The notes below the pieces were generated by a model. The model was given only the letters and a program-made list of their open reading frames with translations. It ran no database searches and had not been told where the DNA came from. This document shows positions 13,183 to 45,588 of a stretch of 64,000 nucleotides of DNA, piece after piece (position 1 is the first letter of the stretch; every line of letters starts with the position of its first letter). Origin of the DNA: an uncultured Bacteroidota bacterium (GTDB lineage Bacteria > Bacteroidota > Bacteroidia > 2-12-FULL-35-15). The stretch spans positions 186,001 through 250,000 of the forward strand of contig CAINDA010000045.1 in NCBI GenBank assembly GCA_903847205.1, read 5' to 3'. The position numbers and the translations under genes are program-made.

Positions 13183-13671
13183 ATGGAAACAGTTACAATC
13201 AGCAATGAAAAGCAGTCTTTGAACAATGTAAAATTGGGAAAAGATGTTAAAGTTTTCAACTTTGTAAATGCATACGGATGTTCAATTGATGATAATTCTA
13301 AAGTAGGTGCTTTTGTGGAAATACAGAAAGGCGCATCCATTGGAAAAAACTGCAAAATATCAAGTCATACTTTTATTTGTGAAGGGGTTCATATTGAAGA
13401 CAACTGCTTCATTGGCCATGGCGTGATGTTTACGAATGATTTATTCCCAAAAGCTGTTAATCCGGATGGATCACAGCAAACAGATGCTGATTGGAAATTG
13501 GTAGAAACATTTGTAAAAAAAGGCGCATCTATAGGCAGTAATGCCACCATATTATGCGGCATTACAATCGGTGAAAATGCTTTAATAGGCGCAGGCGCAG
13601 TTGTAACAAAAAATGTTCCGGCTAATACAATTGCAGCTGGAAATCCTGCAAAAATACTTAAGAAAATATGA
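13183..13671 (+). CDS. Left-handed beta-helix N-acyltransferase (WbpD/FdtC-like)
   Basis: Probably acylates the amino group of a 3-amino sugar nucleotide using acetyl-CoA or another acyl thioester. The 162 residues are built of hexapeptide turns ([37 protein letters not shown]) with the loop [14 protein letters not shown], the wording found in sugar N-acetyltransferases of the WbpD/FdtC group, and an AGNPAKI ending. It is 9 bp after the oxidoreductase and overlaps the aminotransferase by 4 bp (ATGA), so the three are translationally linked. Acyl specificity cannot be read; the ACP cassette downstream makes a non-acetyl donor possible. Confidence 0.85.
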
Positions 13672-14780
13672 AAACAGGCATCATAAAAAAAATCAACTGT
13701 CTTGATTTAAAGGGACAGCATCAGCAGATAAAAAAAGAAATTTTTGAAGCATTCGAAAAAGTGTACGATAACACTGCTTTTTCAGGCGGTTCCTTTGTTG
13801 AAGAATTTGAAAAAAAGTATGCGGCTTTTTGCGGAACAAAATATGCTGTTGGATTAAATAACGGAACAAGCGCGCTCCATTTGGCAATGATTGCCCTTGG
13901 AATTGGTGAAGGAGACGAAGTTATCCTGCCTGCCAACACCTTTGTTGCAACGGCATGGGGAGTGTCTTATACAGGTGCGGTACCTGTATTTGTTGATTGT
14001 ACGGCTGATACGTGGCAGATTGACGTTTCTAAAATAGAACAAAAAATAACAAATAAAACCAAAGCGATTATTGGTGTTCACTTATATGGACAGCCTTTTG
14101 ATATTGGCGGGCTTGCTGCAATTGCTAAAAAACATAATTTATTTTTTGTGGAAGATGCTGCGCAGGCGCAGGGAGCAAAATACAAAGGTGTTAATGTAGG
14201 CAGCTTTGGTGAAATGGCCTGCTTTAGTTTTTATCCCGGAAAAAATTTAGGAGCCTGCGGAGAAGCAGGAGGAATAACAACCAGCAATGATGCGTATTTT
14301 AAGCATTTGCAGAGTCTCCGAAATCATGGTTCTTTAGTCAGGTACTATCATGACGAAATTGGATACAATTACCGGATGGGCGGTTTAGAAGCGGCTTCGT
14401 TGAATATTAAATTAAAGTATTTAAATGGATGGAATGATAGAAGAAAAATCATTGCAAAACGATACCAGGCTGAAATTAAAAATACAAAAATAAAAATCCA
14501 GACCCAGCCGGAATGGGCTGATTCTATTTACCATTTATTTGTGGCGACTACCGAAAAGCGAGATGAGTTTATTAAATATCTCAACGAAAATAATATTAAT
14601 CCCGGCTTGCATTATCCTATACCCTGCCATTTGCAGAAGGCTTATGCGCATTTAGAATATAAAAAAGGAGATTGCCCCAATGCAGAATATTTAGCTGAAC
14701 ATTGCCTGTCACTGCCTATGTATGCAGAGTTAACGGATGAGGAAGTAAATAATGTTATTGATGTAATAAACAATTATTAA
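13668..14780 (+). CDS. DegT/DnrJ/EryC1 PLP-dependent sugar aminotransferase
   Basis: Transfers an amino group, normally from glutamate, to a keto sugar nucleotide. The 370 residues show [11 protein letters not shown] (64-74), the EDAAQAQGA aspartate loop that contacts the PLP ring (about 162-170), and Lys192 in [17 protein letters not shown] as the PLP Schiff-base lysine. The YPGKNLG form is typical of 3-aminotransferases such as FdtB, QdtB or WlbC rather than 4-aminotransferases. It overlaps the acyltransferase upstream by 4 bp and the formyltransferase downstream by 1 bp. The substrate is inferred to be the product of the oxidoreductase at 12172. Confidence 0.9.
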
Positions 14781-15709
14781 TGAAGTTTTCTTTTATCGGC
14801 GGAACATACAGAGGATATGAACTCCTGAAGGCATTATTAAATGCCGGACATATTCCTGATTCAATAGTGATTTTGAAAGAAGATGAACACGAAGTCCTAA
14901 AGTGCTCGTCTCAAATAACTGAACTTGCCCAGCTGCATAATATTCCGTTTGGCTGTAAAAAAAAATTAACAGACACCGATTATAAAAATTACGAAACGGC
15001 ATCACTCGATTTTATTATTGTCTGCGGTTGGAGAACTTTGATAAATCCTGAATTAAATAAATCCCTGAAATTTGGAATGGTTGCTGCCCACGATTCGCTT
15101 TTGCCAAAATACAGAGGGTTTGCACCGATTAACTGGGCGATTATTAACGGCGAGAAAGAATGCGGCGTAACGCTGATATTAATAAATAATGGGGAAACAG
15201 ATTCCGGAAAAATAATTTCTCAGAAGGCGGTTGTAATAAATGATAACGAATATGGATGGGATGTATATCAAAATGTTATCAAGGCAACGATTGAAATTTA
15301 TTTAGAGTTCTTTTCAAACTTTGAGAATAACAAAATTGTTACTTCAGAACAAAATGAACTCGAGGCAACCTATACTTGCAAAAGAACACCTGATGACGGC
15401 CGGATAGACTGGAACAAAAGCTCCAAGATAATTTATGATTTGATCAGGGCAATTGCGCATCCTTATCCTGGTGCATTTTGCGAGTTTGATTCAAAAAGAT
15501 TTTCTATCAGGAAGGCAGAATTGGGAAAGAATAATGAAAAAAAATTTTCCGGCAGAATTCCCGGCAGGGTAATATCAATTAATACTGATTCAATCGAAGT
15601 TCTCTGCGGTCAGGGTACAATTTCTATACTTGAATGGGAATGTAAAAACACCGGTGAGGTCAGCAGTCCAAACAAGGTTGTTAAAAGCATAACTGCAAAA
15701 TTAATTTGA
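14780..15709 (+). CDS. Methionyl-tRNA formyltransferase-like sugar N-formyltransferase
   Basis: Likely transfers a formyl group from N10-formyltetrahydrofolate to an amino sugar. The 309 residues show the formyltransferase core with AHDSLLPKYRGFAPINWAI (103-121) and an acidic site NNGETDSGKI (136-145), then a C-terminal domain of the Fmt type. His104 and Asp141 of the usual Asn-His-Asp set are present, but the Asn position (102) reads Ala. Context next to an aminotransferase argues for a sugar amine acceptor rather than Met-tRNA; a housekeeping fmt would not sit in this operon. If inactive as a formyltransferase it could be a related one-carbon enzyme. Confidence 0.8.
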   Translation: MKFSFIGGTYRGYELLKALLNAGHIPDSIVILKEDEHEVLKCSSQITELAQLHNIPFGCKKKLTDTDYKNYETASLDFIIVCGWRTLINPELNKSLKFGMVAAHDSLLPKYRGFAPINWAIINGEKECGVTLILINNGETDSGKIISQKAVVINDNEYGWDVYQNVIKATIEIYLEFFSNFENNKIVTSEQNELEATYTCKRTPDDGRIDWNKSSKIIYDLIRAIAHPYPGAFCEFDSKRFSIRKAELGKNNEKKFSGRIPGRVISINTDSIEVLCGQGTISILEWECKNTGEVSSPNKVVKSITAKLI

Positions 15710-15712
15710 ACT

Positions 15713-16474
15713 ATGGATGAATTTGCAATCTCTATCGATATAGACTGGGCGCCTGATTTTGCAATTGAAGAGGCCGCCAAGATACTAACAGATCACCAGG
15801 TTAAATGTACCTGGTTCATAACCCATAATTCGCCTGCTGTAAAAAAACTTTCACAGAATAGTTTGTTTGAATTGGGCATTCACCCCAATTTTTTTCTGTT
15901 TAGTTCACAAGGAAATAATGAAGATGAAATAATCAAGTTTTGTTTTGACATTGTTCCGGGAGCCAAATGTGTGCGTACTCATGCGCTTTTCCAATCTTCA
16001 AGATTATTGAAGAAATTAAGGGAAGACTATGGGCTTTTAACTGATTCATCGGTTTATTTACCATATGCCTCCAATATTCAGCCGCATATCGTGAATTATT
16101 CACATAATTCAAAACCTTTAACTAGAATTCCCTATTTTTGGGAAGACGACTTGGAGTGTTATACGGCAGGCAAAACCTGGGAGTTTGACAATAAAAAATT
16201 TTTTGCCGAAGGCCTTAAAATATTTAATTTCCATCCAACTTATATATATTTGAATATCGATGAAATGCATGGCTATGAAAAATTGAAAGTGGAAAAATGT
16301 TCTAAAAAGCCTTTATATCAGGTAGAGAAAGAAGAAATGGCTGAATATAAAAATACAGGAAAAGGAGCAGGAACCTTATTTCAGAAGGTTGTTGAATATA
16401 TTCATAATTACCAGAATGGATCTCAAACCTTATCTGAGATTAGAGAAAAATATATTTCCAGCTTAGAAAAATAA
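15713..16474 (+). CDS. Polysaccharide deacetylase-like protein
   Basis: A 253-residue cytosolic-looking protein (no signal peptide) with the NodB-type features SIDIDWAPDF (7-16, metal and catalytic aspartates), GIHPNF near residue 56 and RTHALF near residue 95, as in WalW-like members seen in O-antigen loci. Predicted to remove an N-acyl or related group from a sugar, or to act on a similar C-N bond. It lies 3 bp after the formyltransferase. A deacylase beside acylating enzymes could free one nitrogen for a different acyl group; this is inference. Confidence 0.72.
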   Translation: MDEFAISIDIDWAPDFAIEEAAKILTDHQVKCTWFITHNSPAVKKLSQNSLFELGIHPNFFLFSSQGNNEDEIIKFCFDIVPGAKCVRTHALFQSSRLLKKLREDYGLLTDSSVYLPYASNIQPHIVNYSHNSKPLTRIPYFWEDDLECYTAGKTWEFDNKKFFAEGLKIFNFHPTYIYLNIDEMHGYEKLKVEKCSKKPLYQVEKEEMAEYKNTGKGAGTLFQKVVEYIHNYQNGSQTLSEIREKYISSLEK

Positions 16475-16543: not shown

Positions 16544-17110
16544 ATGACTGAAGAGGAATTATTTAGATTAAAAACCGAAGTTGTACTCGGAAAAAATATA
16601 AACTTAAGACTTGCTTCAGAAAACGATGCGGCGTTTATCTTAGAGTTACGGCTTAACCCGCTCTTGAATAAATACATTGGGCAGACAGATCCCAGCCTTG
16701 AAAAACAAAAAGAGTGGATAGAAAATTCATTAAAAAAAATAACTGATTTTCATTTTATTATTGAAAATAAGGAAGGGAAACAATACGGTACAGTTGCAAT
16801 TTATAACATTGATTATGAAAATGGAACAGCTGAATGGGGACGATGGGTTATTAAGCCTGGCAGTTTTGTTTTTTTTCCTGTAGAGTCTGCTGTCTTAGTT
16901 TTAAATTTCGCATTTACAAAGCTGGGGCTTAAAAAACTTACAGGCGGAGCTAATAATAAAAACATACAAGTTGTGAATTTTCATAAGATGTATGGAGCAG
17001 TTTCCTCAGTGGATGAAACCCATACATGGTTTTTATTTGAAGAACAAAACTTTATAAAAATTTTAAAACTGTTTAAAAAATTTCACAGCATACAAATAAA
17101 CAATAAGTAA
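16544..17110 (+). CDS. GNAT family N-acetyltransferase
   Basis: A 188-residue GNAT protein of the RimJ/PseH-like type: INLRLASENDAAFILELR near the start is the usual beta1-alpha1 region, followed by a TAEWGRWVI segment and a core helix FTKLGLKKLTGGANNKN for the CoA pyrophosphate. In a sugar operon, acylation of a 4-amino sugar (as PseH does) is more plausible than of ribosomal protein. A 69-bp gap precedes it. The acyl donor could be acetyl-CoA or an acyl thioester from the cassette downstream. The acceptor cannot be assigned. Confidence 0.75.
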   Translation: MTEEELFRLKTEVVLGKNINLRLASENDAAFILELRLNPLLNKYIGQTDPSLEKQKEWIENSLKKITDFHFIIENKEGKQYGTVAIYNIDYENGTAEWGRWVIKPGSFVFFPVESAVLVLNFAFTKLGLKKLTGGANNKNIQVVNFHKMYGAVSSVDETHTWFLFEEQNFIKILKLFKKFHSIQINNK

Positions 17111-17267: not shown

Positions 17268-17564
17268 ATGGAAAAAAAAAAAATTACAGAAATTGTAACT
17301 TCAACGGTATGTTCATTGGTAGAAACTTTGCCGGCAGAGCAAAAATTTATAGTGGATCAAAATACCATCTTATTCGGCACCGGTTCTAAAATTGATTCTT
17401 TGAGCCTCGTTTCAATAATTGTTGACTTAGAGGGAGTTTTTTCTTCTGACTATGGTATTGATATATCTTTGACAGATGACCGCGCCATGATGCGGAAAAA
17501 AAGCCCATTTGACAGCATCACAGCTCTGGTTGATTATATTGAGGAGTTGACACTTGAAAATTAA
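17268..17564 (+). CDS. Acyl carrier protein-like protein (ACP 1)
   Basis: A 98-residue acidic helical protein with a D-S-L site in GSKIDSLSLVSIIVDLE (about 40-56); the serine is the expected 4'-phosphopantetheine attachment. A second conserved region ends in FDSITALVDYIEEL, like the last ACP helix. It is longer than housekeeping AcpP (~78) and opens a group of acyl-processing genes with an SDR 26 bp downstream. It would carry an acyl chain while the neighbouring KAS III, reductases and dehydratase act. Its ribosome-site region is A-rich, typical for the phylum. Confidence 0.82.
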   Translation: MEKKKITEIVTSTVCSLVETLPAEQKFIVDQNTILFGTGSKIDSLSLVSIIVDLEGVFSSDYGIDISLTDDRAMMRKKSPFDSITALVDYIEELTLEN

Positions 17565-17590
17565 TCTGCTGATGCATAATAACAAATTCA

Positions 17591-18304
17591 ATGTATAAAG
17601 ATAAGATAGTATTAATTACAGGATCAAGCAGAGGAATTGGCAGCGAGACTGCCAATTATTTTTTGAAAAATAATGCAGTTGTAATTGGTTTGAGTAAGGG
17701 TGTTCCTGCAATTGGCAATGTAAATTATCATCATTTCAGTGTTGACTTGGCAAAGCCGGAAGAAATTATTAAAACATTTAAAAACATTGCAAAGCATTTC
17801 AAAAAAATTGATATTGTAATAAATAATGCGGCAGTATTAACATCGCAGTACTCTATGATTATGCCTTTAAAAAATGCTGTCGACATGGTTAATGTGGATC
17901 TGCTTGCAGTTTTTCTGGTTTCAAGAGAATCTGTGAAATTGATGCGCAAAAATCAGTACGGACGAATCATTAATATCAGCTCAATGGCTGTGAGTCTTGA
18001 GCCTGCCGGCGATTCATTATACGCGGCCTGTAAAGCAGGAATAAACACATTAGCAAATGTGATGGCAAAAGAGTTCGCTTCTTTTAATATCACCTGCAAT
18101 ACCTTGGCAATAACGGCTTATGAAACAGACATGTTAAAGCAGCATTCGCCTGAAGCGCAGATTAAAATAAAAGAGATAATCAAAAAACTGCCGATAGCCA
18201 GAATGGCCGAAAAAGATGACATTCTTAATGTAATTGATTTCTTTGCATCGAAACGAAGCGGGTACATTACGGCCCAAACCGTTTATTTAGGAGGAGTAAA
18301 TTAG
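17591..18304 (+). CDS. SDR family oxidoreductase, 3-oxoacyl-ACP reductase-like
   Basis: A 237-residue classical SDR. Visible are the nucleotide motif TGSSRGIG (10-17), INNAA (77-81), the catalytic Ser (INISS, 130/131), and Tyr144-x3-Lys148 in DSLYAACKAG. Length and layout match FabG. Between an ACP gene and a KAS III gene, a role as ketoreductase for a carrier-bound acyl chain is most likely. It ends 2 bp before the ATG of the hydrolase gene, indicating tight coupling. An amino- or deoxysugar reductase cannot be excluded. Confidence 0.85.
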   Translation: MYKDKIVLITGSSRGIGSETANYFLKNNAVVIGLSKGVPAIGNVNYHHFSVDLAKPEEIIKTFKNIAKHFKKIDIVINNAAVLTSQYSMIMPLKNAVDMVNVDLLAVFLVSRESVKLMRKNQYGRIINISSMAVSLEPAGDSLYAACKAGINTLANVMAKEFASFNITCNTLAITAYETDMLKQHSPEAQIKIKEIIKKLPIARMAEKDDILNVIDFFASKRSGYITAQTVYLGGVN

Positions 18305-18306
18305 TG

Positions 18307-18945
18307 ATGATAATACGAATTGTAAACGAACCTTTTTCATCAAATGCTTATTTGCTTTGCCGCGAATCCGACAGCAAGTGCATTATTATTGACCCAGGTT
18401 TGGATGAGGTTTTGGTCGATCAAAAAATTATTGAATTGAAATTAAAACCCATTGCAATTATTTCAACACATGGACATTTCGATCATGTAGGGGGTGTGTC
18501 TTTTTTCCATGATAAATATTCAATACCATTTTATCTTCATATAGAAGATTTAAAACTTTATAAATCATCAAATTTTTATCTGAAGCTCAGTAAAATCAAC
18601 AGGTTTATTAAAATTATTGAACCTGAATTTTTAATGATTGGTAAAAGCCAGAAACTGAATATTGATAAGTTTTCTTTGGAAATTTATAATTATCCCGGAC
18701 ATACAAAAGGAAGTTGCATTATAAAACATGAAAACAATATTTTTACTGGTGATATTGTTTTCAAAAAAGGATTGTATCTTAATAAGCTGCCTCAGGAGAA
18801 TGCGGCAGTATTGAAAAAATCAATCATCGAAATCATGAATGCCTTTGATTTAGCCAGCAATTGTTATCCCGGTCACGGTAATGAAGCTGTTTTGAATGAA
18901 ATAAAATTAACAAATCAGGATCTTATAAATTTCATCAGCAATTGA
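18307..18945 (+). CDS. Metallo-beta-lactamase fold hydrolase (glyoxalase II-like)
   Basis: A 212-residue zinc hydrolase with the metal motif HGHFDH (55-60) in ISTHGHFDHVGG, then YPGHTKGS, FTGDIVF and CYPGHGNEA, the remaining metal ligands of glyoxalase II-type enzymes. Such proteins cleave thioesters; here it could release an acyl group from an ACP or remove misprimed chains. The ATG at 18307 is preferred to a GTG one codon upstream. It ends 2 bp before the KAS III start. Substrate unproven. Confidence 0.83.
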   Translation: MIIRIVNEPFSSNAYLLCRESDSKCIIIDPGLDEVLVDQKIIELKLKPIAIISTHGHFDHVGGVSFFHDKYSIPFYLHIEDLKLYKSSNFYLKLSKINRFIKIIEPEFLMIGKSQKLNIDKFSLEIYNYPGHTKGSCIIKHENNIFTGDIVFKKGLYLNKLPQENAAVLKKSIIEIMNAFDLASNCYPGHGNEAVLNEIKLTNQDLINFISN

Positions 18946-18947
18946 AT

Positions 18948-19952
18948 ATGAGTGCCTCAAAATACGGTGTTGGAATTATTTCTGTCGGGCATTATCTGCC
19001 GAATAATATTCTTACAAATGAGCAGCTGTGCGAAAACATTGAGGGATTAACACCTGAATGGATTATTGAAAAAATAGGAATTAAAAGACGGCACTATATT
19101 TCAAAAGCGGAATCAGCATCGTCAATGGCTATAGATGTTGCGAAAAAGCTGATTGAAGAAAATAAATTAAATCCTGCCGAAATTGGTTTGATAATCATCG
19201 CATCTTTCAGTCAGGATTATTTATTTCCGCCAATGTCTGCTAGAATTCATGCTGCCATCGGCGCTTCAAAGGACTGCCAGATTATTGATATTAATACCAA
19301 TTGCGTAGGTCTGGTAACAGCTTCTACTATTGCAGCTGAAAGAATGATGCTTAACGATAAAATTAAATATTCAATCGTTATCGGTGTTGAAGTTTTGTCG
19401 AGGTTTACTAATATTAATGATAAAGACACTGCTGTTTTTTTTAGCGATGGAGCCTCTGGAATGCTCATGGGTAAAGTAAAAGAGGGTTATGGATTTATCA
19501 ATTCCAGATTTGCAACGGATTCATCCACCTACGAATCAGTAAGAATGCGCGGCGGAGGATCCATGTATCCGGCAAATAAACTGCTTAATGATAATGCTGT
19601 AAATTATATTGAGCAGAATGGTTTGGCAACCTGGAAACAGGCTGTTACCAACCTTCCGTACGTTATAAAAGAATTAATTAAAGATTCTGATATTGAAATT
19701 GAAGATGTTGATTTTTTTATTTTCCATCAGGCAAACAGCTTTCTGATTAATTATATTCTTGGTAAAATGAAAATACCAAAAGATAAAACTTATACCAATG
19801 TTGAAGAAATTGGCAATACCGGCGCAGCAAGTATCGGCATTGCATTAAGCGAGGCTTTCGCAAAGGGCCTGATTAAAAGCGGCAGTACAGTTTTAATTGC
19901 AGGGGTGGGAGCGGGGTTTAATTTTGGTGCTAATTTGTGGAAAATTTCATAA
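18948..19952 (+). CDS. 3-oxoacyl-ACP synthase III-like condensing enzyme
   Basis: Condenses a starter acyl thioester with malonyl-ACP or a similar extender. The 334 residues retain the complete KAS III triad: Cys119 in NTNCVGLVTAS, His259 in FHQANSF and Asn289 in GNTGAASIG. The length matches FabH. It sits among ACPs, a ketoreductase and a MaoC-SDR fusion rather than in a fab operon, so it is a specialised copy; the starter may be short or the glycerate-derived unit that FkbH could load. ATG 18948 is used rather than TTG 18942, which overlaps the previous stop. Confidence 0.88.
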   Translation: MSASKYGVGIISVGHYLPNNILTNEQLCENIEGLTPEWIIEKIGIKRRHYISKAESASSMAIDVAKKLIEENKLNPAEIGLIIIASFSQDYLFPPMSARIHAAIGASKDCQIIDINTNCVGLVTASTIAAERMMLNDKIKYSIVIGVEVLSRFTNINDKDTAVFFSDGASGMLMGKVKEGYGFINSRFATDSSTYESVRMRGGGSMYPANKLLNDNAVNYIEQNGLATWKQAVTNLPYVIKELIKDSDIEIEDVDFFIFHQANSFLINYILGKMKIPKDKTYTNVEEIGNTGAASIGIALSEAFAKGLIKSGSTVLIAGVGAGFNFGANLWKIS

Positions 19953-19970
19953 TTCAATACGTTAAAAATA

Positions 19971-20900
19971 ATGGAAAATAACGCGCAGCAATTCTTAAAT
20001 GATTTAATCCAGGAAATTGGAAAGAAAGATGCTTTGCATTCAAAAAAAATAAAAAAGAACTTTAATCAAATAGCTCAAAATCATAAAGCACAGTTTGATG
20101 AACTCCTTAACATGATTTTTAATTATTTTTCTGCACAGAAAATAACGCCTGAACTGCTTGCTGTGGATTATCTGAAAATGATTAACGACATGAGAAAAGA
20201 AGGCATGTACTTTCTTAAACATGGCCTCTACTCCTGCAAGAATCAGTCAATGGCGTATGAACATGTTTATTCGAGAAAAGATATAATGTCGTATTACATG
20301 AACGCATTGCTGATTTCACAGATTTTGTGGAAACATCACTTTGATATGTTCATGTATTTCAGAGAAAGCCTCAAAAAGTATTATAAACAAAATGATAAAA
20401 TAACTATTTTAGATGTAGGTCCGGGGCATGGTTTTTTTTCATACATAATTAAAACTGACATCCCTGATTATTTAAGGCTCGACATTGTTGATATAAGCGA
20501 ATCATCGCTTGATGCAACAAAGCAGATAATCGGCAATGAAAAAGAAAAAATGTTTTTCTTTAACGATGATATTTTTAATTTTAATTCGCCGCATAAATAT
20601 GATTTAATTATACTCGGTGAAGTGCTTGAACATTTGGATAAACCTGTTGAGATTCTTAAAAAACTTTCGGACCTGTTAGCTGATAACGGCGTTTTGTGGC
20701 TCACTACGCCCACGAATTCGCCGGCATTGGATCATGTTTATTTGTTCAGGTCAAAAGAAGATGTTACTGATTTAATTAAATTATCAGGTTTTAATGTAAA
20801 TGATTTACATGGGCAGTATGCCGAAGATGTGAATGAAGAAACTGCGAAAAAAAATAAAGTAACGCAGTTGATTGGTGCTTTTTGTAAAAAGACTGTTTAA
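19971..20900 (+). CDS. Class I SAM-dependent methyltransferase
   Basis: A 309-residue protein with an N-terminal helical region (~130 residues) of unknown role and a Rossmann methyltransferase domain: motif I ILDVGPGHGFFSYI, motif II DIVDIS, and LIILGEVLEHL as the post-II/IV block, then LWLTTPTNS. It probably O- or C-methylates the acyl chain or sugar built by this cluster. It starts 18 bp after the KAS III gene and is followed by a perfect palindrome that may end transcription. Whether the substrate is ACP-bound or a sugar cannot be told. Confidence 0.82.
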   Translation: MENNAQQFLNDLIQEIGKKDALHSKKIKKNFNQIAQNHKAQFDELLNMIFNYFSAQKITPELLAVDYLKMINDMRKEGMYFLKHGLYSCKNQSMAYEHVYSRKDIMSYYMNALLISQILWKHHFDMFMYFRESLKKYYKQNDKITILDVGPGHGFFSYIIKTDIPDYLRLDIVDISESSLDATKQIIGNEKEKMFFFNDDIFNFNSPHKYDLIILGEVLEHLDKPVEILKKLSDLLADNGVLWLTTPTNSPALDHVYLFRSKEDVTDLIKLSGFNVNDLHGQYAEDVNEETAKKNKVTQLIGAFCKKTV

Positions 20901-20948
20901 AAAAAATTACAATAGTCAGCGCTTCTTGTTTTTATTATTGCAAGATCA

Positions 20949-20981
20949 AGACCTGTCAGGTTTTTAAAACCTGACAGGTCT
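20949..20981. terminator. Perfect 16-bp inverted repeat, terminator-like palindrome
   Basis: AGACCTGTCAGGTTTT (20949-20964) and its exact complement (20966-20981) flank a single T. A folded RNA would have a strong stem with an A/U-rich tip. No long U-run follows on the plus strand, so it may be a dispersed palindromic repeat acting as a terminator rather than a simple one. Confidence 0.6.
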
Positions 20982-21062
20982 AAATAAAAAAAATAATGAC
21001 GTATCATTCGATTTTAAAGGGAAAGCAAATATTATATTTACAAGCTTAAAATATATTTAAGA

Positions 21063-22250
21063 ATGAAATACAACGATATTAAAATTGGTGACAAAGAAAA
21101 ATTGACTCATATCATTACAATCAATGATATAGAAAAATTTGTTGAACTCACCGGTGACGACAATAAGCTTCATGTAGATGAAAAATTTGCAAGTAAAACA
21201 AATTTTAAAAAACCCGTTGTTCACGGCATGCTCGGCGCTTCTTTTATTTCTACAATCATTGGCACAAAACTGCCGGGCGACGGCGCTCTCTGGTTTTCTC
21301 AATCACTTGACTTTTTATTACCCGTAAGGATCGGCGATAAACTTACTGTTGTTGCTGAGGTGATTAAGAAAAATGACAAAGAACAAATCATCGAATTAAA
21401 AACTGATATTTTTAATCAAAATAAACAGATAGTTACAAGAGGTTTTGCAAAAGTCAAAGTAGTTGAATTTGATACCCCCGTTGCAGCAACCGCTGAAAAA
21501 ATAAAAGCGAAAGAGAGAACAGCCTTGGTTATCGGCGGTACCGGAGGTATTGGACGTGCCGCTTGTATGCAGCTTGCGGCTGATGGTTTTAATATTATTA
21601 TCCACTATCATAAAAATAAAAAACTTGCAGACGAAATTAAAGCGGATGTTGAAAAACTAAAAAGGAAAGCAGTTATCGTAAAAGCTGATATTTTAAATGA
21701 TTTGGAGATTAAAGAGATGATTTCAAAAAGTTTGAGAGCCTCTGAATACATCAATGTTGTTGTTAATTGCGCTGCAGCCGTTATTCCAAATATTAAATTT
21801 ATGGATTTAGAATGGTCTGATTTTCAGAAACAGCTGGACCTAAATATTAAAGCCGCATTCACAATTGTTAAAGAAATACTTCCTGTAATGATTAAAAATG
21901 GTTACGGAAAAATTATTAATCTCGGAAGTTTTTCTGTTGATAAGCCGAATACAGAATGGGCTTCTTATATCACTGCAAAGTCTGCATTGGCGGGTTTTAC
22001 AAAAGCAATGGCAATAGAATTAGCACCTAAAGGCATCCGTGTTAATCTGGTAACTCCAAGTCTTATCAGCACAGAATTAACGGCTGACATTCCTGAAAAA
22101 ATAAAACTGCTCACCGCTGCTCAAACGCCTCTCAGAAGGCTTGCGTCGGCTTCTGATGCGGCAGGTGCAATAAGTTTTCTGGCTTCAGAAAAATCTGATT
22201 TTATTACCGGTGAAAACATCCGTGTTAACGGCGGACTGATAATGATTTAA
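21063..22250 (+). CDS. Fusion protein: MaoC-like hydratase + SDR reductase
   Basis: A 395-residue two-domain enzyme. Residues 1-135 are a hot-dog MaoC/R-hydratase domain with ELTGDDNKLHVDEKFA, where Asp32 and His37 fit the catalytic pair, and KKPVVHGML. Residues 152-395 are a FabG-like SDR with IGGTGGIG (158-165), Ser289, Tyr302 and Lys306 (SYITAK). The two would dehydrate or hydrate and reduce the beta-carbon of an acyl thioester, the steps expected after KAS III condensation. Fusion fixes the two activities in one polypeptide. It is 6 bp before the FkbH gene. Confidence 0.88.
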   Translation: MKYNDIKIGDKEKLTHIITINDIEKFVELTGDDNKLHVDEKFASKTNFKKPVVHGMLGASFISTIIGTKLPGDGALWFSQSLDFLLPVRIGDKLTVVAEVIKKNDKEQIIELKTDIFNQNKQIVTRGFAKVKVVEFDTPVAATAEKIKAKERTALVIGGTGGIGRAACMQLAADGFNIIIHYHKNKKLADEIKADVEKLKRKAVIVKADILNDLEIKEMISKSLRASEYINVVVNCAAAVIPNIKFMDLEWSDFQKQLDLNIKAAFTIVKEILPVMIKNGYGKIINLGSFSVDKPNTEWASYITAKSALAGFTKAMAIELAPKGIRVNLVTPSLISTELTADIPEKIKLLTAAQTPLRRLASASDAAGAISFLASEKSDFITGENIRVNGGLIMI

Positions 22251-22255
22251 ACACT

Positions 22256-24010
22256 ATGGAAACTTTAAAATATTCGGAAATTTTACAGCAAAATCAGCTG
22301 TTAAAAGGGATACAGAAAGGCGCTCCATACAAAATTTCTGTTTTATCTAATGTTACAATTAATTCAATTAAAGAGATAGTTGAATATTCTCTCCGCACTA
22401 ATCACATTAATCCATCAATAACGCTTGGTAATTACGATAATATTATTCAGGACAGCGCAAAGCAAACAGATGCTGATTTAGTGATTGTTTTTTTCGATAT
22501 GCTTAATATCGTTGACAGCGTGGCTGCTTTTTTTGAAAATTTAAATGATGAGCAGTACTCTAATTTAAAGGATAAAGTCTGTTCGGAGATAGATATGATT
22601 CTTGAAAATTTAAAACATTGTCCCTCCGTTGTTTTTAATACCTTTTCATCCGCTTATTTTATTTCAAATTATTCTCACAAATCAAAAATTGAAACGTTTG
22701 TCTCAGAATTAAACAGGCATTTGGATGAAAGAAAAAGTATAAACGTTTCATTGTTAAACATTGATAAAATTTTTTCAAAGATCGGCATCAAACAAGCGAT
22801 TGACTATAGGATGTACAATTCATCAAAGGCGCCTTATACATTATCGTTTTTAAAAAACTATACGGCTGCTGTTGAACCAATCATTTTTAGAAATACCGGC
22901 AGGTTGAAAAAAGCCGTCATATTTGACTGTGATAATACATTATGGAAAGGTATCATCGGCGAAGACGGCATGGATAAAATTGATATGTCGGGCAGTTCAC
23001 ACGCAGGACATTTTTATAACAAGGTACAGCAAATAGCTGTGTATCTCAGCAGGCAAGGCGTAATTGTCGGGATCTGCAGCAAAAATAATGAGCAGGATGT
23101 AAACGATGTGCTGCTGGGCCATCCCGATATTATATTAAAGGATGAGTACATTTCTATAAAAAAAATCAATTGGAATGATAAAGCTGCAAATTTAACAGCA
23201 ATAGCCTCCGAATTAAATATCGGATTGGATAGTATTGTTTTTATTGACGATTCCGCATTTGAAATTAATTTGATTAAAGAGCAGCTGCCTGAAATTGTTT
23301 CGCTGCAGGTGCCTTCAGCCATTTATGAATATCCTGATTTTTTATTAGAGAATATTTATAGACATTTTAATTTCACTTTGAACAGTGAAGATGCTAAGAA
23401 AACCGAAATATACAAACAGCAGTCCGAGCGGGAAAGCGATAAAAAAAATCACAAGTCAATTGATGAGTATTTGTCATCTTTGAGCATCTCTTTAACTGTC
23501 TCTAAAGATGATTTAGCGCAGGTATCACGTATCGCTCAATTAACGCAGAAAACAAATCAATTTAATCTTACAACAAAAAGATATACCGAAAACCAAATCT
23601 TGAATATGATGAACAGCAGCACAGAACATGTATTTGCTGTTTCTGTTAAAGACAAGTTTGGCGACAATGGTTTAACCGCGGTTTGTATTATCAAAACTGA
23701 TTTGCAGAATAAAAATGTCTATTGCATTGATACATTTTTAATGAGCTGCAGAATAATAGGCAGAAACATTGAATTTGTGTTTATGGATTATATTATGTCT
23801 TGGTTAAACGTGAAAAGTCCTGCAGCAATAGTAACAGCGGAGTATATGCCGACAAATAAAAACGAGCAGGTGCAGAATTTTTATATCTCTAATGGATTTA
23901 CTTTAATGAATGAAAAGGAAGGTACAAAAGCTTATAGTCTTGAATTATCAAAGTATCAGCCTAAAAATATTACATATATAAGAACCAGTTTTCAAGGCGG
24001 TAAAAATTAA
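22256..24010 (+). CDS. FkbH-like HAD-family protein (glyceryl-ACP loading)
   Basis: FkbH proteins dephosphorylate and transfer a glyceryl unit from 1,3-bisphosphoglycerate to an ACP in polyketide pathways. This 584-residue protein has the expected layout: an N-terminal SGNH-like region (~1-200), a HAD domain with VIFDCDNTLWKGIIGEDG (Asp224-x-Asp226-x-Thr228) and a later FIDDSAFE block, and a C-terminal GNAT-like domain. A small ACP gene follows after 4 bp, the pairing usual for FkbH. It therefore suggests a glycerate-derived starter or extender in this cluster; this is inference from family knowledge. Confidence 0.88.
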   Translation: METLKYSEILQQNQLLKGIQKGAPYKISVLSNVTINSIKEIVEYSLRTNHINPSITLGNYDNIIQDSAKQTDADLVIVFFDMLNIVDSVAAFFENLNDEQYSNLKDKVCSEIDMILENLKHCPSVVFNTFSSAYFISNYSHKSKIETFVSELNRHLDERKSINVSLLNIDKIFSKIGIKQAIDYRMYNSSKAPYTLSFLKNYTAAVEPIIFRNTGRLKKAVIFDCDNTLWKGIIGEDGMDKIDMSGSSHAGHFYNKVQQIAVYLSRQGVIVGICSKNNEQDVNDVLLGHPDIILKDEYISIKKINWNDKAANLTAIASELNIGLDSIVFIDDSAFEINLIKEQLPEIVSLQVPSAIYEYPDFLLENIYRHFNFTLNSEDAKKTEIYKQQSERESDKKNHKSIDEYLSSLSISLTVSKDDLAQVSRIAQLTQKTNQFNLTTKRYTENQILNMMNSSTEHVFAVSVKDKFGDNGLTAVCIIKTDLQNKNVYCIDTFLMSCRIIGRNIEFVFMDYIMSWLNVKSPAAIVTAEYMPTNKNEQVQNFYISNGFTLMNEKEGTKAYSLELSKYQPKNITYIRTSFQGGKN

Positions 24011-24014
24011 TAAT

Positions 24015-24251
24015 ATGGAAAACAGTAAATCTCAAATAATAAAAGTAATGAGCGCTGTATTTGAAGTGCCCATAGAAAGTATCACTGAAACGTCTTCTGT
24101 AGACAGCATTGAATCCTGGGATTCTGTGAAGCACTTAAATTTAATTCTTGCTTTAGAAGAAGAATTCAACATAAGTATACCTGATGAAGAAGTTGGAAAT
24201 TTGATGAATTATAAACTTATTGAAATGATTGTAAATGAGTGCAGAAAATAG
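24015..24251 (+). CDS. Acyl carrier protein (ACP 2)
   Basis: A 78-residue ACP with the attachment serine in ESWDSVKHLNLILALEEEF (D-S-V in place of D-S-L), the normal length of a type II ACP and the final helix KLIEMIVNE. It is 4 bp downstream of the FkbH-like gene and overlaps the ligase gene by 17 bp, so it is the likely carrier for the FkbH-loaded unit. It is different enough from ACP 1 at 17268 to have a separate partner. Confidence 0.88.
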   Translation: MENSKSQIIKVMSAVFEVPIESITETSSVDSIESWDSVKHLNLILALEEEFNISIPDEEVGNLMNYKLIEMIVNECRK

Positions 24252-25587
24252 CATAAGTGATTTTTTGTCTGTTTTTAAACTTTACCAGGACAGCACCGCT
24301 GTTATCTGGCATGATACTGCTTTTTCTTATTCCTACCTTCTAACCAGAATTAATTATTGGCGTGATAATTTGAATGATGTCCGGCAAGGAACCATTGTTG
24401 GATTAGAGGGAGATTTTTCCCCAGAGTCCATTGCAATTCTTTTTGTTTTAATTGAAAAGAATGCAATTACAGTTCCCCTCGATATTAATCATAAAGCAAA
24501 GAATGAAAGTAAATACGAAATAGCTCAATTAGAAATACTGATTAGAATAAATGACGAAAATAATATTGAATTTATAAAATGGCATAATTCATCTGCGCAG
24601 AATGAATTTTATAAATTATTGATCGAAAGAAAATCACCGGGTTTAGTTCTTTTCACTTCTGGTTCAGCCGGTGAACCAAAAGCGGCACTTCACGATTTTT
24701 CTAAACTGCTTGCTAAGTTTTCCATAAAAAGAAAAGCTTTACGGACGATTAATTTTTTATTATTCGACCATTGGGGAGGCTTAAATACCTTGTTTCATGT
24801 TTTATCAAACGGAGGTGCAGTGGTGATTTTGGATAACAGAACACCTGACCATGTATGCGAATTAATTGAAAAATATAAAGTAGAACTGCTGCCGGCTTCT
24901 CCCACTTTTTTGAATATGCTTATTTTCAGCAGGGCCTACGAAAAATATAATCTTGAAAGCCTGCAGATAATAAGTTATGGTGCTGAACCAATGCCTGAGA
25001 CACTGCTTAGCCATTTAAACAGGCTGTTTCCTGGTGTTAAACTCCAGCAGACTTATGGACTCATTGAACTTGGGGTGATGCGTTCAAAGTCGGAAAACAA
25101 TGGTTCGCTTTGGGTTAAGCTTGGCGGTGAAGGCTTTCAGGCAAGAGTTGTTGAAGGGATATTACAGATTAAATCTGATGCAGCGATGATCGGTTACCTT
25201 AATGCCCAAAGCCCTTTTACGGATGACGGTTGGTTTATAACAGGTGATTCAGTTGAAGTAAAAGGTGAATATCTTAAAATCTTGGGCAGAAAATCAGAGC
25301 TGATTAATGTTGGCGGCGAAAAAGTATTTCCGCAGGAAATAGAAAATGTAATATTAGAAATTCCTGAAGTGACGGACGTATTGGTTTATGGCGAAAACAA
25401 TCGTTTAACCGGAAAAATAGTCTGCGCTAGAGTATCTTATAATGGTGTTGAAGAAAAAAAAGAAATAATTCAGAAAATTAAAACCTATTGCAGGTTAAAG
25501 TTGCAGGCGTTTAAAGTGCCGGTAAAAATCGAATTAACAGAAGCAGGTTTTGAGAGTGACAGATTTAAAAAAAGCAGAAATAATTAA
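24235..25587 (+). CDS. AMP-dependent acyl-CoA/acyl-ACP ligase
   Basis: An adenylate-forming enzyme of 450 residues, slightly shorter than usual. Motifs: VLFTSGSAGEPKAALHDF (P-loop, 138-155), QTYGLIELG (adenine/Thr-Glu motif), GWFITGDSVEV and GRKSELINVGGEKVFPQEIE (hinge). The A10 lysine should lie in the final DRFKKSRNN. It would activate a carboxylic acid and pass it to CoA or ACP 2; alternatively it could amidate a sugar. Its start lies inside the ACP 2 gene. Substrate not predictable. Confidence 0.85.
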   Translation: MSAENSISDFLSVFKLYQDSTAVIWHDTAFSYSYLLTRINYWRDNLNDVRQGTIVGLEGDFSPESIAILFVLIEKNAITVPLDINHKAKNESKYEIAQLEILIRINDENNIEFIKWHNSSAQNEFYKLLIERKSPGLVLFTSGSAGEPKAALHDFSKLLAKFSIKRKALRTINFLLFDHWGGLNTLFHVLSNGGAVVILDNRTPDHVCELIEKYKVELLPASPTFLNMLIFSRAYEKYNLESLQIISYGAEPMPETLLSHLNRLFPGVKLQQTYGLIELGVMRSKSENNGSLWVKLGGEGFQARVVEGILQIKSDAAMIGYLNAQSPFTDDGWFITGDSVEVKGEYLKILGRKSELINVGGEKVFPQEIENVILEIPEVTDVLVYGENNRLTGKIVCARVSYNGVEEKKEIIQKIKTYCRLKLQAFKVPVKIELTEAGFESDRFKKSRNN

Positions 25588-25588
25588 T

Positions 25589-26530
25589 ATGGAAAATCAG
25601 ACAACAGTTAGTATTGTTATTCCTTTCTTAAATGAAAAGGAAGGAATTGCGGTCCTTTTGAAAACCATAGAAGAATATTACTCAAGGAAAAAATTTGATT
25701 TTGATATAATTTTTGTTGATGATGGGTCTAAAGACGGGACTAGTGATATAATCAGAAATTTTAAGCCAATTAGTTTCCCCTGCAGGCTTATTTCGCTTTC
25801 AACTAATTTTGGTTCGCACGCCGCAGTCAGAGCAGGGTTTCTTCATGCCTCAGGCAGATACGTTACCTGTCTGCCGGCAGATTTGCAAATATCTTTCGAT
25901 ACAGTAGAAAAATTATATAACGCAGCTTCGGAGGGTAATGATATAGTATATGGTGTAAGGGAAATCAATGATGTCGGAGTAGTTGAGAAAATATTTTCCC
26001 GGTTTTATTCATCGATGATGCAGCGGTTTGTTATTAAAGATTTTCCATACAAAGGTTTGGAAACTTTTATGATCAGTGAAAAAGTAAGGAAGGTTCTCAA
26101 TCAAAATATAGAATCTAATTCCTCGCTTATTTTGCAAATCCTATCAATGGGTTTTAAGAACAAGTTTGTAAACATTGAAAAAGCGCAGCGTATTGCGGGA
26201 AAATCCAAATGGACCTTATCAAAGAAAGTCAAATTATTAATTGATTCCTTTGTCGCATTTTCATTTGCGCCTATCAGATTGGTTTCAATTATCGGAATTT
26301 TTTTCTTTTTCATAGGGCTTGGATGGACTTCATATATTGTTTTTAGAAAAATTGTTTATGATGACCTTGTAAGCGGATGGCCTGCATTGTTGTGTATCCT
26401 ATTAATAGGTTTTGGCATCACAAATATTTCTCTTGGAATAATTGCAGAATATCTGTGGCGCACCCTTGATGCAAGCCGTAAACGTCCGGTATTCATTATC
26501 GATGAAATAATAGAACTGCATACATCATGA
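25589..26530 (+). CDS. ArnC/GtrB-like GT2 glycosyltransferase with two C-terminal membrane helices
   Basis: Predicted polyprenyl-phosphate glycosyltransferase making a lipid-linked sugar in the cytosolic leaflet. The 313 residues have VSIVIPFLNEKEG (7-19), VDDGSKDGT, LPADLQIS as the DxD-like site, then an amphipathic segment GKSKWTLSKKVKLL and two hydrophobic helices near the end, the normal ArnC/GtrB topology. ATG 25589 is chosen; a TTG at 25550 would add 13 residues and overlap the ligase. It overlaps the SMR-like gene by 4 bp. Closely similar in layout to the GT2 at 39441. Confidence 0.88.
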   Translation: MENQTTVSIVIPFLNEKEGIAVLLKTIEEYYSRKKFDFDIIFVDDGSKDGTSDIIRNFKPISFPCRLISLSTNFGSHAAVRAGFLHASGRYVTCLPADLQISFDTVEKLYNAASEGNDIVYGVREINDVGVVEKIFSRFYSSMMQRFVIKDFPYKGLETFMISEKVRKVLNQNIESNSSLILQILSMGFKNKFVNIEKAQRIAGKSKWTLSKKVKLLIDSFVAFSFAPIRLVSIIGIFFFFIGLGWTSYIVFRKIVYDDLVSGWPALLCILLIGFGITNISLGIIAEYLWRTLDASRKRPVFIIDEIIELHTS

Positions 26531-26895
26531 TCAAAACAATTTTATACTGTATTATATATGCTTTCCTGAACGTATCAGGTGCTGCATTGATAAAATTAAA
26601 ACTGAAAGACTGCGTTTTGTCGACCTTTAAAGAATGGGTGTATTTTCTTTTTAATGTCCAGGTTATCATTGCCTTTGTTTTTATATTTATCTCTGCATTG
26701 GTTATGTTTAAAGTTCTTTCGTCAGGCAGTTTTTCTTTTGCTATCCCGGTTGCAACCGGAATCAATTTTATTTTTACCTTGGGAGTAGGATATTTTATTT
26801 TTAAAGATAACCTGAACCTGATTTCGTTGATAGGTTTTGTATTAATATTAGCAGGTATTCTTCTTCTAAGTTTAAATAATCAGCAGCATGTTTAA
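26527..26895 (+). CDS. SMR/EmrE-like small membrane protein, possible ArnE/F-type flippase subunit
   Basis: A 122-residue protein with four hydrophobic helices, typical of the small multidrug resistance superfamily. Wording such as SFAIPVATGINFIFTLGVGYFIFKD fits the ArnE/ArnF and GtrA-adjacent group better than drug exporters. The gene overlaps both neighbours (4 bp with the ArnC-like GT2 and 8 bp with the epimerase), so it likely moves the lipid-linked sugar made by the GT2 to the outer leaflet. A drug-efflux role is less likely given the coupling. Confidence 0.8.
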   Translation: MIKTILYCIIYAFLNVSGAALIKLKLKDCVLSTFKEWVYFLFNVQVIIAFVFIFISALVMFKVLSSGSFSFAIPVATGINFIFTLGVGYFIFKDNLNLISLIGFVLILAGILLLSLNNQQHV

Positions 26896-27862
26896 TAAAG
26901 TAAAAAACAGTACAATTTTTGTGACCGGCGGGGCCGGTTTTATTGGTTCATACCTCATAGAAGAATTATTGCCGCTTCAGCCTAAAAAAATTATCATACT
27001 CGATAATTTAATTCGCGGCAGTTTTGAAAACATGAAAAGTTTCAGCAGCAATCCAGTTGTTGAATTTATTGAAGGCGACATCCGAAATTTTGAATTAGTG
27101 GATAAACTCATGTCCCGGACTGATTATCTTTTCCACATGGCCGCATTGCGGATCAATGCCTGTGCTGCGAATCCAGAAGAAGGTTTTGATGTAATGATAA
27201 ATGCCTCTTTTAATATTGCGCAAAGTGCAGTTAAGCATAAAATAAAAAAAGTGATTTATTCTTCAAGTGCTTCTGTTTACGGCCTTGCACAGCATTTCCC
27301 GACACCTGAAACAGATAATCCTTACGATAATCAAACATTTTACGGCGCGGCTAAATTATTCGGGGAACAGTTATTCAGAAGTTATAAATTTATGTATGGG
27401 CTGGATTACGTCGCATTACGCTACTTTAATGTGTTCGGCGCACGTATGGATACTGATGGGAAATATACTGAAGTGATGATAAAATGGCTCGACTGCATAA
27501 GAGACGGGAAAAATCCTTTGATATATGGCGATGGAAGCACCTCAATGGATTTTGTTTACGTTAAAGACGTTGCAAGGGCTAATGTTGCAGCACTTTTATC
27601 GGATGTTACTGATGACGTATTTAATATTGGAAACAAAAGGGAAACTTCATTGAAGGAATTATTAATCTTGTTATTACAGGCCAATAACTCAAATTTAAGC
27701 CCAGAGTTCAGAGAAGATAATACTATAAATCCTGTAAGCAAAAGAATTGCTGAAATTGAAAAAGCTCAGTCCTTATTGAATTTTAAGCCTTTAATCAGTT
27801 TAGAAGAAGGCTTGAAACTTTTGTCGGATTGGTATTTTGAAAAACAAATAAAAATAAAATAA
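26888..27862 (+). CDS. NAD-dependent sugar epimerase/dehydratase (extended SDR)
   Basis: A 324-residue nucleotide-sugar enzyme with FVTGGAGFIGSYL (11-23), YSSSASVYG (124-132) and catalytic Tyr152-x3-Lys156 in FYGAAKLFGEQ, the GalE/WbpP layout. It should epimerise or dehydrate a UDP- or GDP-sugar. The lysine-rich ending has no known domain. Its start overlaps the SMR gene by 8 bp, and a DegT gene follows after 83 bp. The C-terminal half resembles UDP-glucose 4-epimerases, but substrate specificity is not fixed by the motifs I can see. Confidence 0.88.
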   Translation: MFNKVKNSTIFVTGGAGFIGSYLIEELLPLQPKKIIILDNLIRGSFENMKSFSSNPVVEFIEGDIRNFELVDKLMSRTDYLFHMAALRINACAANPEEGFDVMINASFNIAQSAVKHKIKKVIYSSSASVYGLAQHFPTPETDNPYDNQTFYGAAKLFGEQLFRSYKFMYGLDYVALRYFNVFGARMDTDGKYTEVMIKWLDCIRDGKNPLIYGDGSTSMDFVYVKDVARANVAALLSDVTDDVFNIGNKRETSLKELLILLLQANNSNLSPEFREDNTINPVSKRIAEIEKAQSLLNFKPLISLEEGLKLLSDWYFEKQIKIK

Positions 27863-27945: not shown

Positions 27946-29076
27946 TTGATACCGATAGCGAAACCATACTTAACAGAAGACGAAGCCAAAGCGGCTCATG
28001 ATACTATTTTAACAGGCTGGGTAACGCAGGGACCGAGAGTGCAGGAGTTTGAAGAAAAGTTTGCGCAATTTACAGGTTCGAAATACGCGGTTGCGGTATG
28101 CAATTGCACTACGGCACTGCATTTGGCAATGATTGTTTCCGGTATAAAAGATGGCGATGAAGTAATCTGCCCTTCCATGAGTTATATAGCTACAGCCAAT
28201 TGTATCATGTATGTTGGCGCAAAACCAGTTTTTGCCGAAGTGAATCCGGAGACTTATAATATAGATATTAATCATGTTGAAAAGCTGATTACATCAAAAA
28301 CAAAAGCGGTTTTAATTGTCCATCAAATAGGTATGCCTGCCGATATTGACGCATTTACTGAGCTGTGCAAAAAATATAATCTTAAACTTATTGAAGATGC
28401 TGCCTGTGCCGCAGGATCATCTTATAAGGAAAATAAAATAGGGTCGCATTCCGAATTAGTCTGCTTTTCGTTTCATCCCAGAAAGGTGATTACAACCGGC
28501 GACGGGGGCATGATTACAACTAACAATGAAAAATATTATAACCGTTTGAAACTTTTGCGGCAGCATGCAATGAGTATCAGCGACAGGGTAAGACATTCTT
28601 CTTCAAAAATTATTTTCGAGGATCATATAGAAATCGGTTATAATTATAGAATGACGGATATTCAGGCTGCTGTTGGTATTAAACAGCTCGAAAAAATAGA
28701 CTGGATAATTTCCGAACGAAGAAAAATAGCAATGCAGTACCATGCTGCATTTAAGACCATCAAATGCATCCGTCTTCCCATTGAGCAGGACGGGTATTGC
28801 AGCAATTATCAATCATACAGTATTTATTTAAAAGATACCTGCCCGATTTCCCGCAATGATTTAATGCAGCTACTCTTAGATAATGGCATTTCATCGCGAA
28901 GAGGTATTATGACATCTCACAGGGAAACAGCTTATGCTGCTTATTGCAAAGATTTAAAATTGCCTGTTTCTGAAGATGCAAGCGATAGAAGTATTTTAAT
29001 TCCATTATTTGTACCGATGCTTCAGGAAGAAATTGATAAGGTAATTACTGTTATCAAAAAATTATTACTATTCTGA
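27946..29076 (+). CDS. DegT/DnrJ/EryC1 PLP-dependent aminotransferase, 4-amino-sugar type
   Basis: A 376-residue sugar aminotransferase distinct from the one at 13668. Motifs: CNCTTALHLAM, EDAACAAGS and Lys180 in FSFHPRKVITTGDGGMIT. The ITTGDGGM form is common in PglE, perosamine synthase and related 4-aminotransferases. It starts with TTG: conserved IPIAKPYL begins at codon 2, so no later start is credible. The stop is followed within a few bases by the decayed tail of an acyltransferase copy. The substrate would be a 4-keto-6-deoxy sugar, but no 4,6-dehydratase is in this window. Confidence 0.9.
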   Translation: MIPIAKPYLTEDEAKAAHDTILTGWVTQGPRVQEFEEKFAQFTGSKYAVAVCNCTTALHLAMIVSGIKDGDEVICPSMSYIATANCIMYVGAKPVFAEVNPETYNIDINHVEKLITSKTKAVLIVHQIGMPADIDAFTELCKKYNLKLIEDAACAAGSSYKENKIGSHSELVCFSFHPRKVITTGDGGMITTNNEKYYNRLKLLRQHAMSISDRVRHSSSKIIFEDHIEIGYNYRMTDIQAAVGIKQLEKIDWIISERRKIAMQYHAAFKTIKCIRLPIEQDGYCSNYQSYSIYLKDTCPISRNDLMQLLLDNGISSRRGIMTSHRETAYAAYCKDLKLPVSEDASDRSILIPLFVPMLQEEIDKVITVIKKLLLF

Positions 29077-30383: not shown

Positions 30384-30467
30384 TACCGCCCTCATTATTT
30401 AAAAACATTTCATTTAAAGTATTTTGTCCTGTTTTTTATTGTACTATTAATTATAAGGCATTGATTC

Positions 30468-31637: not shown

Positions 31638-31719
31638 CACGGCCTAATATTTTAAAATTATTTTATTTAAATTATAATATCCTATTTTTTTTAGACCATT
31701 AATTAAACAGCATTGATTC

Positions 31720-34499: not shown

Positions 34500-34548
34500 A
34501 AATTATTTTTTTAAAACAGAAATTGAAAAGAACTTATGTTAAAAGACA

Positions 34549-43704: not shown

Positions 43705-43721
43705 AATCTGTATTTATAAAA

Positions 43722-43729
43722 CAAAAATA
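43722..43729 (-). promoter_or_regulatory. -7 element before the 42157-43704 gene
   Basis: On the minus strand TATTTTTG fits TAnnTTTG and ends about 18 nt before the ATG at 43704, allowing this gene its own transcript. No well-spaced TTTG was seen. Confidence 0.4.
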
Positions 43730-45579: not shown

Positions 45580-45588
45580 ATCATATAA

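Follow-up and report, generated by a model that had tools for sequence, protein, structure and literature searches.

A composite acyl carrier protein-dependent cassette with a proposed role in acylating an amino sugar in an uncultured Bacteroidota bacterium

Nine adjoining genes at positions 17268-25587 of a 64,000-nucleotide stretch of DNA from an uncultured Bacteroidota bacterium (contig CAINDA010000045.1; the whole stretch is hereafter called the window) probably encode a composite, acyl carrier protein (ACP)-dependent pathway, in which a short hydroxyacyl, probably methoxyacyl, thioester would be made, transferred to a 3-amino sugar nucleotide and fed into a lipid-linked surface-glycan pathway. 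An earlier note on this DNA had proposed that the cluster builds a short acyl group on ACPs to decorate an amino sugar. This view is well supported by several features: a neighbouring acyltransferase related to FdhC, an aminotransferase related to QdtB in the same locus, the amino-sugar context of a second cassette (locus L043), and relatives of the cassette methyltransferase that stand beside FkbH genes elsewhere. The individual steps that we propose are drawn from families and gene context only. Judged by its gene order, the cassette is composite rather than one linear pathway: a unit of a fused MaoC dehydratase and short-chain dehydrogenase/reductase (SDR), an FkbH-like protein and a second ACP (ACP2) is nested inside a trio of ACP1, a FabG-like SDR and an AMP-dependent acyl ligase.

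All nine genes lie on the forward strand, and the families that the earlier note had assigned to them were all found at their places. ACP1 (17268..17564; DSL serine 44) matches its profile weakly (NF006617, E 0.003), and its assignment is backed by the conservation of the DSL motif, by orthologues at the same position in two other cassettes (52% identical in L027 and 68% in L043), and by a modest AlphaFold model whose top Foldseek matches are carrier proteins, with probabilities of 0.94-0.98 but E values above 0.05. It is followed by the FabG-like SDR (17591..18304; adh_short, E 3e-37; YxxxK intact), a metallo-beta-lactamase-fold hydrolase that may be a thioesterase (18304..18945; E 1.5e-18; HxHxDH intact), a beta-ketoacyl-ACP synthase III (KAS III; 18942..19952; PRK09352 over cut-off, E 5e-83) with an intact Cys-His-Asn triad, and a UbiG/BioC-like S-adenosylmethionine-dependent methyltransferase (19971..20900; family profile match), a putative O-methyltransferase. 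The KAS III is the third in its genome, and the other two are 30-31% identical to it. The MaoC-SDR fusion (21063..22250) retains both the MaoC motif TGDDNKLH and the SDR YxxxK. Next to it lies the FkbH-like HAD/acyltransferase protein (22256..24010; TIGR01686 at 268 bits, cut-off 147; BF1531 structure 3slr), the putative glyceryl loader of ACP2, in which the HAD DxDxT motif (DCDNTLW) and the SCR cysteine are intact, as they are in its homologues. ACP2 (24015..24251; PP-binding over cut-off; WDS serine) starts 4 bases downstream of FkbH, and a partner ACP adjoins FkbH in most homologues too. The last gene encodes the AMP-dependent acyl ligase (24235..25587; family profile match, motif intact). 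The active-site motifs of the cassette enzymes are kept across the homologues.

Immediately upstream of ACP1 lies a gene for a GNAT acyltransferase (16544..17110, +; Acetyltransf_3), whose best match in the Protein Data Bank by far is 5kta, FdhC (E 2.6e-18). FdhC is a sugar N-hydroxyacyltransferase that uses acyl-CoA as the donor, and reportedly transfers 3-hydroxybutanoyl to dTDP-3-amino-3,6-dideoxy-D-galactose. The same locus encodes a DegT/DnrJ sugar aminotransferase (13668..14780, +), whose closest solved relative is the C3-aminotransferase QdtB, and in L043 a GNAT likewise shares the locus with a sugar aminotransferase. As the GNAT is nearest to FdhC and the aminotransferase to QdtB, this GNAT is the best candidate for the enzyme of the transfer, and a 3-amino sugar is the favoured acceptor.

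Downstream, a glycosyltransferase family 2 (GT2) polyprenyl-phosphate sugar transferase of the PgfS/ArnC-like type (25589..26530, +; profile match) begins 1 base past the stop of the AMP-ligase gene, so that the nine cassette genes and GT2 form a ten-gene run. It is followed by a small four-span EamA/TMEM234-like protein, a candidate ArnE/F-like flippase with matches below the cut-offs (26527..26895, +), and an NAD-dependent epimerase/dehydratase (26888..27862, +; profile match). From ACP1 to the epimerase, adjacent genes overlap by up to 17 bases or lie no more than 26 bases apart; only the MaoC-SDR gene is preceded by a longer space, of 162 bases. With gaps this short or overlapping through to GT2 and the epimerase, the acyl and lipid-sugar genes very likely belong to one transcription unit. 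A promoter and terminator scan gave promoter counts near the shuffled expectation, with sites mostly within genes. The space between the methyltransferase and MaoC-SDR genes contains a perfect palindrome, ACCTGTCAGGTTTTTAAAACCTGACAGGT (20951-20979), which resembles a dispersed repetitive extragenic palindromic element; with a variable loop it occurs in 18 copies in its own genome, in 1-3 copies in three relatives and in none of most others, and its reversed control pattern gave 0 copies.

Genome searches covered samples of 395 genomes of the phylum and 299 of Campylobacterales, and neighbourhood labels rest on BLAST against a small reference set and on selected Pfam scans. The full gene order is kept in two other Bacteroidota, L027 (GWA2_32_17), without the methyltransferase, and L043 (G128), with it, at 47-90% identity. 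The FkbH proteins are 74% and 57% identical to that of the window in L027 and L043, respectively, the ACP2 proteins 90% and 68%, the AMP-ligases 72% in both, and the FabG-like SDR is 77-82% identical to its L043 and L027 counterparts. The cassette of L043 is flanked by two genes for FdtA, a dTDP-hexose ketoisomerase, and by a GNAT-aminotransferase-GT2 set. That of L027 has an AAC(3)-family N-acyltransferase gene upstream and downstream a gene for a DUF4910/DUF2172 protein, which we take to belong to the Cj1295-type family; a gene linked to PseB-PseC in L105 shares 43% identity with it. The cassette is therefore not consistently separated from sugar genes, which the earlier note had named as one pattern that would speak against an amino-sugar role: just one of the three full cassettes, that of L027, lacks adjoining sugar-nucleotide genes, yet it carries the N-acyltransferase and the Cj1295-type gene. 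Of 36 genomes of the window's genus, the cassette is unique to that of the window: one has its AMP-ligase, and 5 have FkbH, the other four FkbH proteins being just 32-35% identical; given this distribution, vertical inheritance within the genus is unlikely. As for plasmids, MaoC-SDR gave 0 matches in 72,556 sequences at E 1e-60, and all FkbH matches were distant.

In all three full cassettes the trio encloses the FkbH unit, and the hydrolase, KAS III and, where present, the methyltransferase also lie between the SDR and the ligase. The FkbH unit is also found without the trio. Fused MaoC-SDR with FkbH and ACP occurs in Cyclobacteriaceae, Fulvivirga, L044 (another family of the window's class), a Bacteroidales metagenome-assembled genome and Nitrospinota, and the first three have in common an aminotransferase-(WbqC-GNAT)-GT2 arrangement upstream and an unassigned gene plus a deacetylase gene downstream. 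Separate genes for FkbH, ACP, in some cases a methyltransferase, MaoC and SDR, followed by an MBOAT acyltransferase gene, are present in L050 and L052 of the window's genus, in L051 of its class, and in the Campylobacterales loci L107 and L110-L113, while L056, L057 and L061 have FkbH, ACP and MBOAT without further genes of the unit. Methyltransferase relatives adjoin FkbH in L029, L105 and L108-L111. A protein family of about 297 amino acids, with no Pfam match, is encoded directly 3' of FkbH(-ACP) in L042 (11928-12821), L028, L032, L034, L044 and L059. FkbH-domain proteins are also seen in Asgard archaea (L036-L040), at 28-32% over the HAD/transferase part.

Neither FabF nor KAS III was found in the fetched stretches of 14 loci with MaoC, SDR, FkbH and ACP (L028, L029, L032, L034, L042, L044, L050-L052, L054 and L110-L113), and genome-wide PF00109 positions agree with this absence where contigs could be matched; the exceptions are L107, with a KAS III about 4.5 kb off, and L062, with one close by. 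A tree of 48 FkbH proteins requires 2 changes for those with a fused MaoC-SDR, against 8.1 after shuffling, and groups the window, L027 and L043 at full support. The trio has relatives standing alone in L128-L130, near an AAC(3)-type acyltransferase in L128 and a hexapeptide protein in L129, and a relative of the AMP-ligase in L131 adjoins FdtA and aminotransferase genes. In L130 (1672-9770), of the same phylum, the trio lies near two genes that read by eye as motA and motB, a possible link to flagellin glycans.

These observations bear on the order of the pathway. We propose that FkbH would load a glyceryl unit from 1,3-bisphosphoglycerate onto ACP2. MaoC enzymes remove a 3-hydroxyl together with the alpha-hydrogen; here the MaoC domain might dehydrate the 2,3-dihydroxypropionyl group to pyruvyl(enol)-ACP, which the fused SDR might reduce to lactyl (2-hydroxypropionyl)-ACP, a conversion that we put forward tentatively. 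The methyltransferase would optionally O-methylate a hydroxyl. KAS III may then lengthen the chain by one malonate-derived unit, which the SDR encoded at 17591 would reduce on ACP1 to leave a group of the 3,4-dihydroxypentanoyl type; the AMP-ligase would load free acid onto ACP1, or reload it, and misloaded carriers would be edited by the metallo-hydrolase. A single extended acyl product of this kind is conceivable but somewhat doubtful. The FdhC-like GNAT would acylate the C3 amine of a sugar that the Gfo/Idh dehydrogenase (see below) and the QdtB-like aminotransferase supply, the ArnC-like GT2 would place the sugar on polyprenyl phosphate, the EamA-like protein would flip it, and a GT-C glycosyltransferase would transfer it outside. 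The recurrence of FkbH, ACP, MaoC and SDR without a ketosynthase makes a C3 product the economical reading. We suggest, still with reserve, that FkbH-ACP-MaoC-SDR, with or without the methyltransferase, might be an unrecognised ketosynthase-free module that makes lactyl- or 2-methoxypropionyl-ACP for surface glycans out of the glycolytic intermediate 1,3-bisphosphoglycerate, delivered as amides by GNAT or as esters by MBOAT enzymes, present at least in Bacteroidota, Campylobacterota and Nitrospinota, and in the window nested in an acyl-extension trio.

Several points weigh against the proposed pathway. The acyl product is deduced from the enzymes, and its lactyl step relies on chemical reasoning; the same conversion has reportedly been proposed for the bryostatin loading module, which the literature searched did not confirm. 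In the tree, FkbH from the C. jejuni-type locus falls into a separate and distant clade. Among scanned genes lying up to 10 kb from the L027 cassette, none was a sugar-nucleotide gene; that genome has aminotransferase relatives elsewhere, away from the cassette. The acceptor sugar is likewise read from enzyme families, and more than one candidate is left by further genes of the locus, for a second aminotransferase, a hexapeptide acyltransferase and a formyltransferase. In addition, two separate acyl groups are about as possible as one extended group. The FkbH unit and the methyltransferase would then make a lactyl or methoxypropionyl group, and ACP1, the SDR and the AMP-ligase, perhaps with KAS III, a 3-hydroxybutyryl-like one, each with its own acyltransferase (the GNAT and the hexapeptide protein). 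The separate occurrence of unit and trio elsewhere and the presence of both acyltransferases in the locus agree with such a division. We still regard it as rather unlikely: against it stand the interleaving of the two sets in each of the full cassettes and the presence of one N-acyltransferase beside the cassette of L027.

The order that the earlier note had assumed, in which KAS III extends glyceryl-ACP or a ligase-loaded acid with malonyl-ACP and the MaoC and SDR domains process the beta-carbon, would yield a C4-C5 hydroxyacyl or enoyl group by a VioS/VioR-like route. The KAS III is intact and specific to the cassette, and VioS, VioR and acp of Pseudomonas syringae have been assigned to a 3-hydroxybutyryl amide (PMC3927599). 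However, MaoC-SDR is tied to FkbH and ACP in loci without KAS III or FabF, and the free FabG-like SDR is already available for the beta-keto step. Because the unit usually occurs without a ketosynthase, MaoC-SDR belongs with FkbH, and the KAS III-first order, which we consider unlikely, is not the best reading. More improbable still is a secondary-metabolite cluster that merely neighbours the sugar genes. In its favour, FkbH proteins are familiar chiefly from polyketide pathways, very large proteins of synthase size are encoded in some of the FkbH loci (L063 and L064), and the L027 cassette has no sugar-nucleotide genes alongside; on the other hand, the window contains no modular synthase genes, its cassette is coupled to the lipid-sugar transferase gene, and amino-sugar genes with an FdhC-like GNAT (window and L043) or an N-acyltransferase (L027) accompany the cassettes. 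A pigment or lipid cluster was also considered and set aside: no gene set matched, and the flexirubin SDR match was generic and below its cut-off.

Among known systems, Campylobacter jejuni bears an amide-linked 2,3-di-O-methylglyceroyl group on pseudaminic acid, identified by mass spectrometry and nuclear magnetic resonance and dependent on Cj1295 (PMC3068675), and its flagellin locus, which spans Cj1293 to roughly Cj1304, contains an fkbH gene, cj1302 (PMC7099621). Like the cassette, this locus combines FkbH, ACPs, KAS III and a methyltransferase beside amino-sugar genes. Its product is an amide-linked methoxyacyl group, and it shares the Cj1295-type gene with L027, which also carries an AAC(3)-type N-acyltransferase. 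L105, of C. jejuni-type layout, has ACP, a methyltransferase related to that of the window, FkbH and KAS III, but neither MaoC-SDR nor the metallo-hydrolase was seen there, and its FkbH is the distant one. The window lacks a Cj1295-type DUF4910/DUF2172 gene among the genes scanned, and no flagellin context was seen in it. The viosamine island of P. syringae (vioA, M, T, S, B, R and acp), which places a 3-hydroxybutyryl amide on an amino sugar (PMC3927599), resembles the window in its KAS III, FabG-like reductase, ACP, methyltransferase, sugar aminotransferase and acyltransferase, whereas its seven genes include no FkbH, MaoC-SDR or AMP-ligase and its methyl group is on the sugar O-2. In Flavobacterium psychrophilum, also of the Bacteroidota, an O-antigen-specific ACP, ketosynthases and a reductase (wfpC-wfpG) are predicted to supply 3,5-dihydroxyhexanoyl to a PglD-type N-acyltransferase for Qui2NAc4NR (PMC6519341); this route differs in its two ketosynthases and its acyltransferase family, and FkbH and MaoC-SDR are not mentioned. 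The orf1-orf2-orf3 genes of Aeromonas and Enterobacteriaceae flagellin islands, for an ACP, a 3-oxoacyl-ACP reductase and an AMP-dependent synthetase (PMC7874193, PMC4875605), can be likened by annotation to the ACP1-SDR-AMP-ligase trio, whose order is kept in the window but split by the inserted block of KAS III and the FkbH unit; the Aeromonas trio instead adds LuxE/LuxC. Glyceryl loading by FkbH is described in tetronate and trans-AT polyketide pathways (Sun et al. 2008, cited in PMC4552970), which share FkbH and ACP with the cassette, and OocJ joins DH-MT-FkbH-ACP in one module; the cassette, by contrast, consists of discrete proteins in a sugar locus without a modular polyketide synthase, and the OocJ module was judged inactive by its authors.

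The remaining sugar genes of the locus are also on the forward strand. Upstream lie a Gfo/Idh/MocA sugar-nucleotide dehydrogenase resembling UDP-GlcNAc 3-dehydrogenase (12172..13173; Pfam E 2.5e-22; NF040723 133 bits, below cut-off), the hexapeptide-repeat acyltransferase (13183..13671; Hexapep E 3.9e-24), the sugar formyltransferase (14780..15709; Pfam; NF005414 185 bits, below cut-off) and a WbmS-like member of the polysaccharide deacetylase family (15713..16474; PF22537, E 6e-59). The last two adjoin each other (14780-16474), which suggests a second, N-formylated sugar modification. The WbmS family takes its name from a Bordetella O-antigen gene; a presumed link through WbmS to 2-methoxypropionyl in Bordetella is not stated in the paper found. 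Past the epimerase is the second DegT/DnrJ aminotransferase (27946..29076; profile match), followed by three tandem AT3 membrane acyltransferases with 64-73% mutual identity (29208-32892). Genes of GT-C type and their companions are duplicated between 33009-36506 and 42157-47438 (33009/42157, 49%; 34549/45589, 66%; 35994/46986, 45%), and the genes at 9021, 40419 and 43899 are likewise paralogous (52-63%). The 12 GT-C enzymes counted in the earlier note come to at most 11: five match PMT_2 over the cut-off, one matches GT87 below it, and five are unassigned proteins with about 7-12 membrane spans by prediction.

The principle that ACP-made acyl groups decorate amino sugars is established in P. 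syringae, C. jejuni and F. psychrophilum, with parallels in gene content in Aeromonas and enterobacteria. The earlier note had called this combination in Bacteroidota undescribed, which holds for the exact gene set as far as the literature searched shows; the principle itself had already been proposed for F. psychrophilum on the basis of genes and structure (PMC6519341). What appears new, within that literature, is the nested three-part cassette and the widespread FkbH-ACP-MaoC-SDR unit as an acyl source for GNAT or MBOAT enzymes. Many surface sugars of bacteria carry lactyl, methoxypropionyl, glyceroyl or longer hydroxyacyl groups, which help to set serotype and recognition; to our knowledge, the C3 groups among them mostly lack an assigned source. 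If our reading is correct, FkbH-ACP-MaoC-SDR would be a gene signature for C3 acyl groups, tying them to glycolysis, and one donor-making module would account for N-acylated amino sugars and MBOAT-esterified glycans alike.

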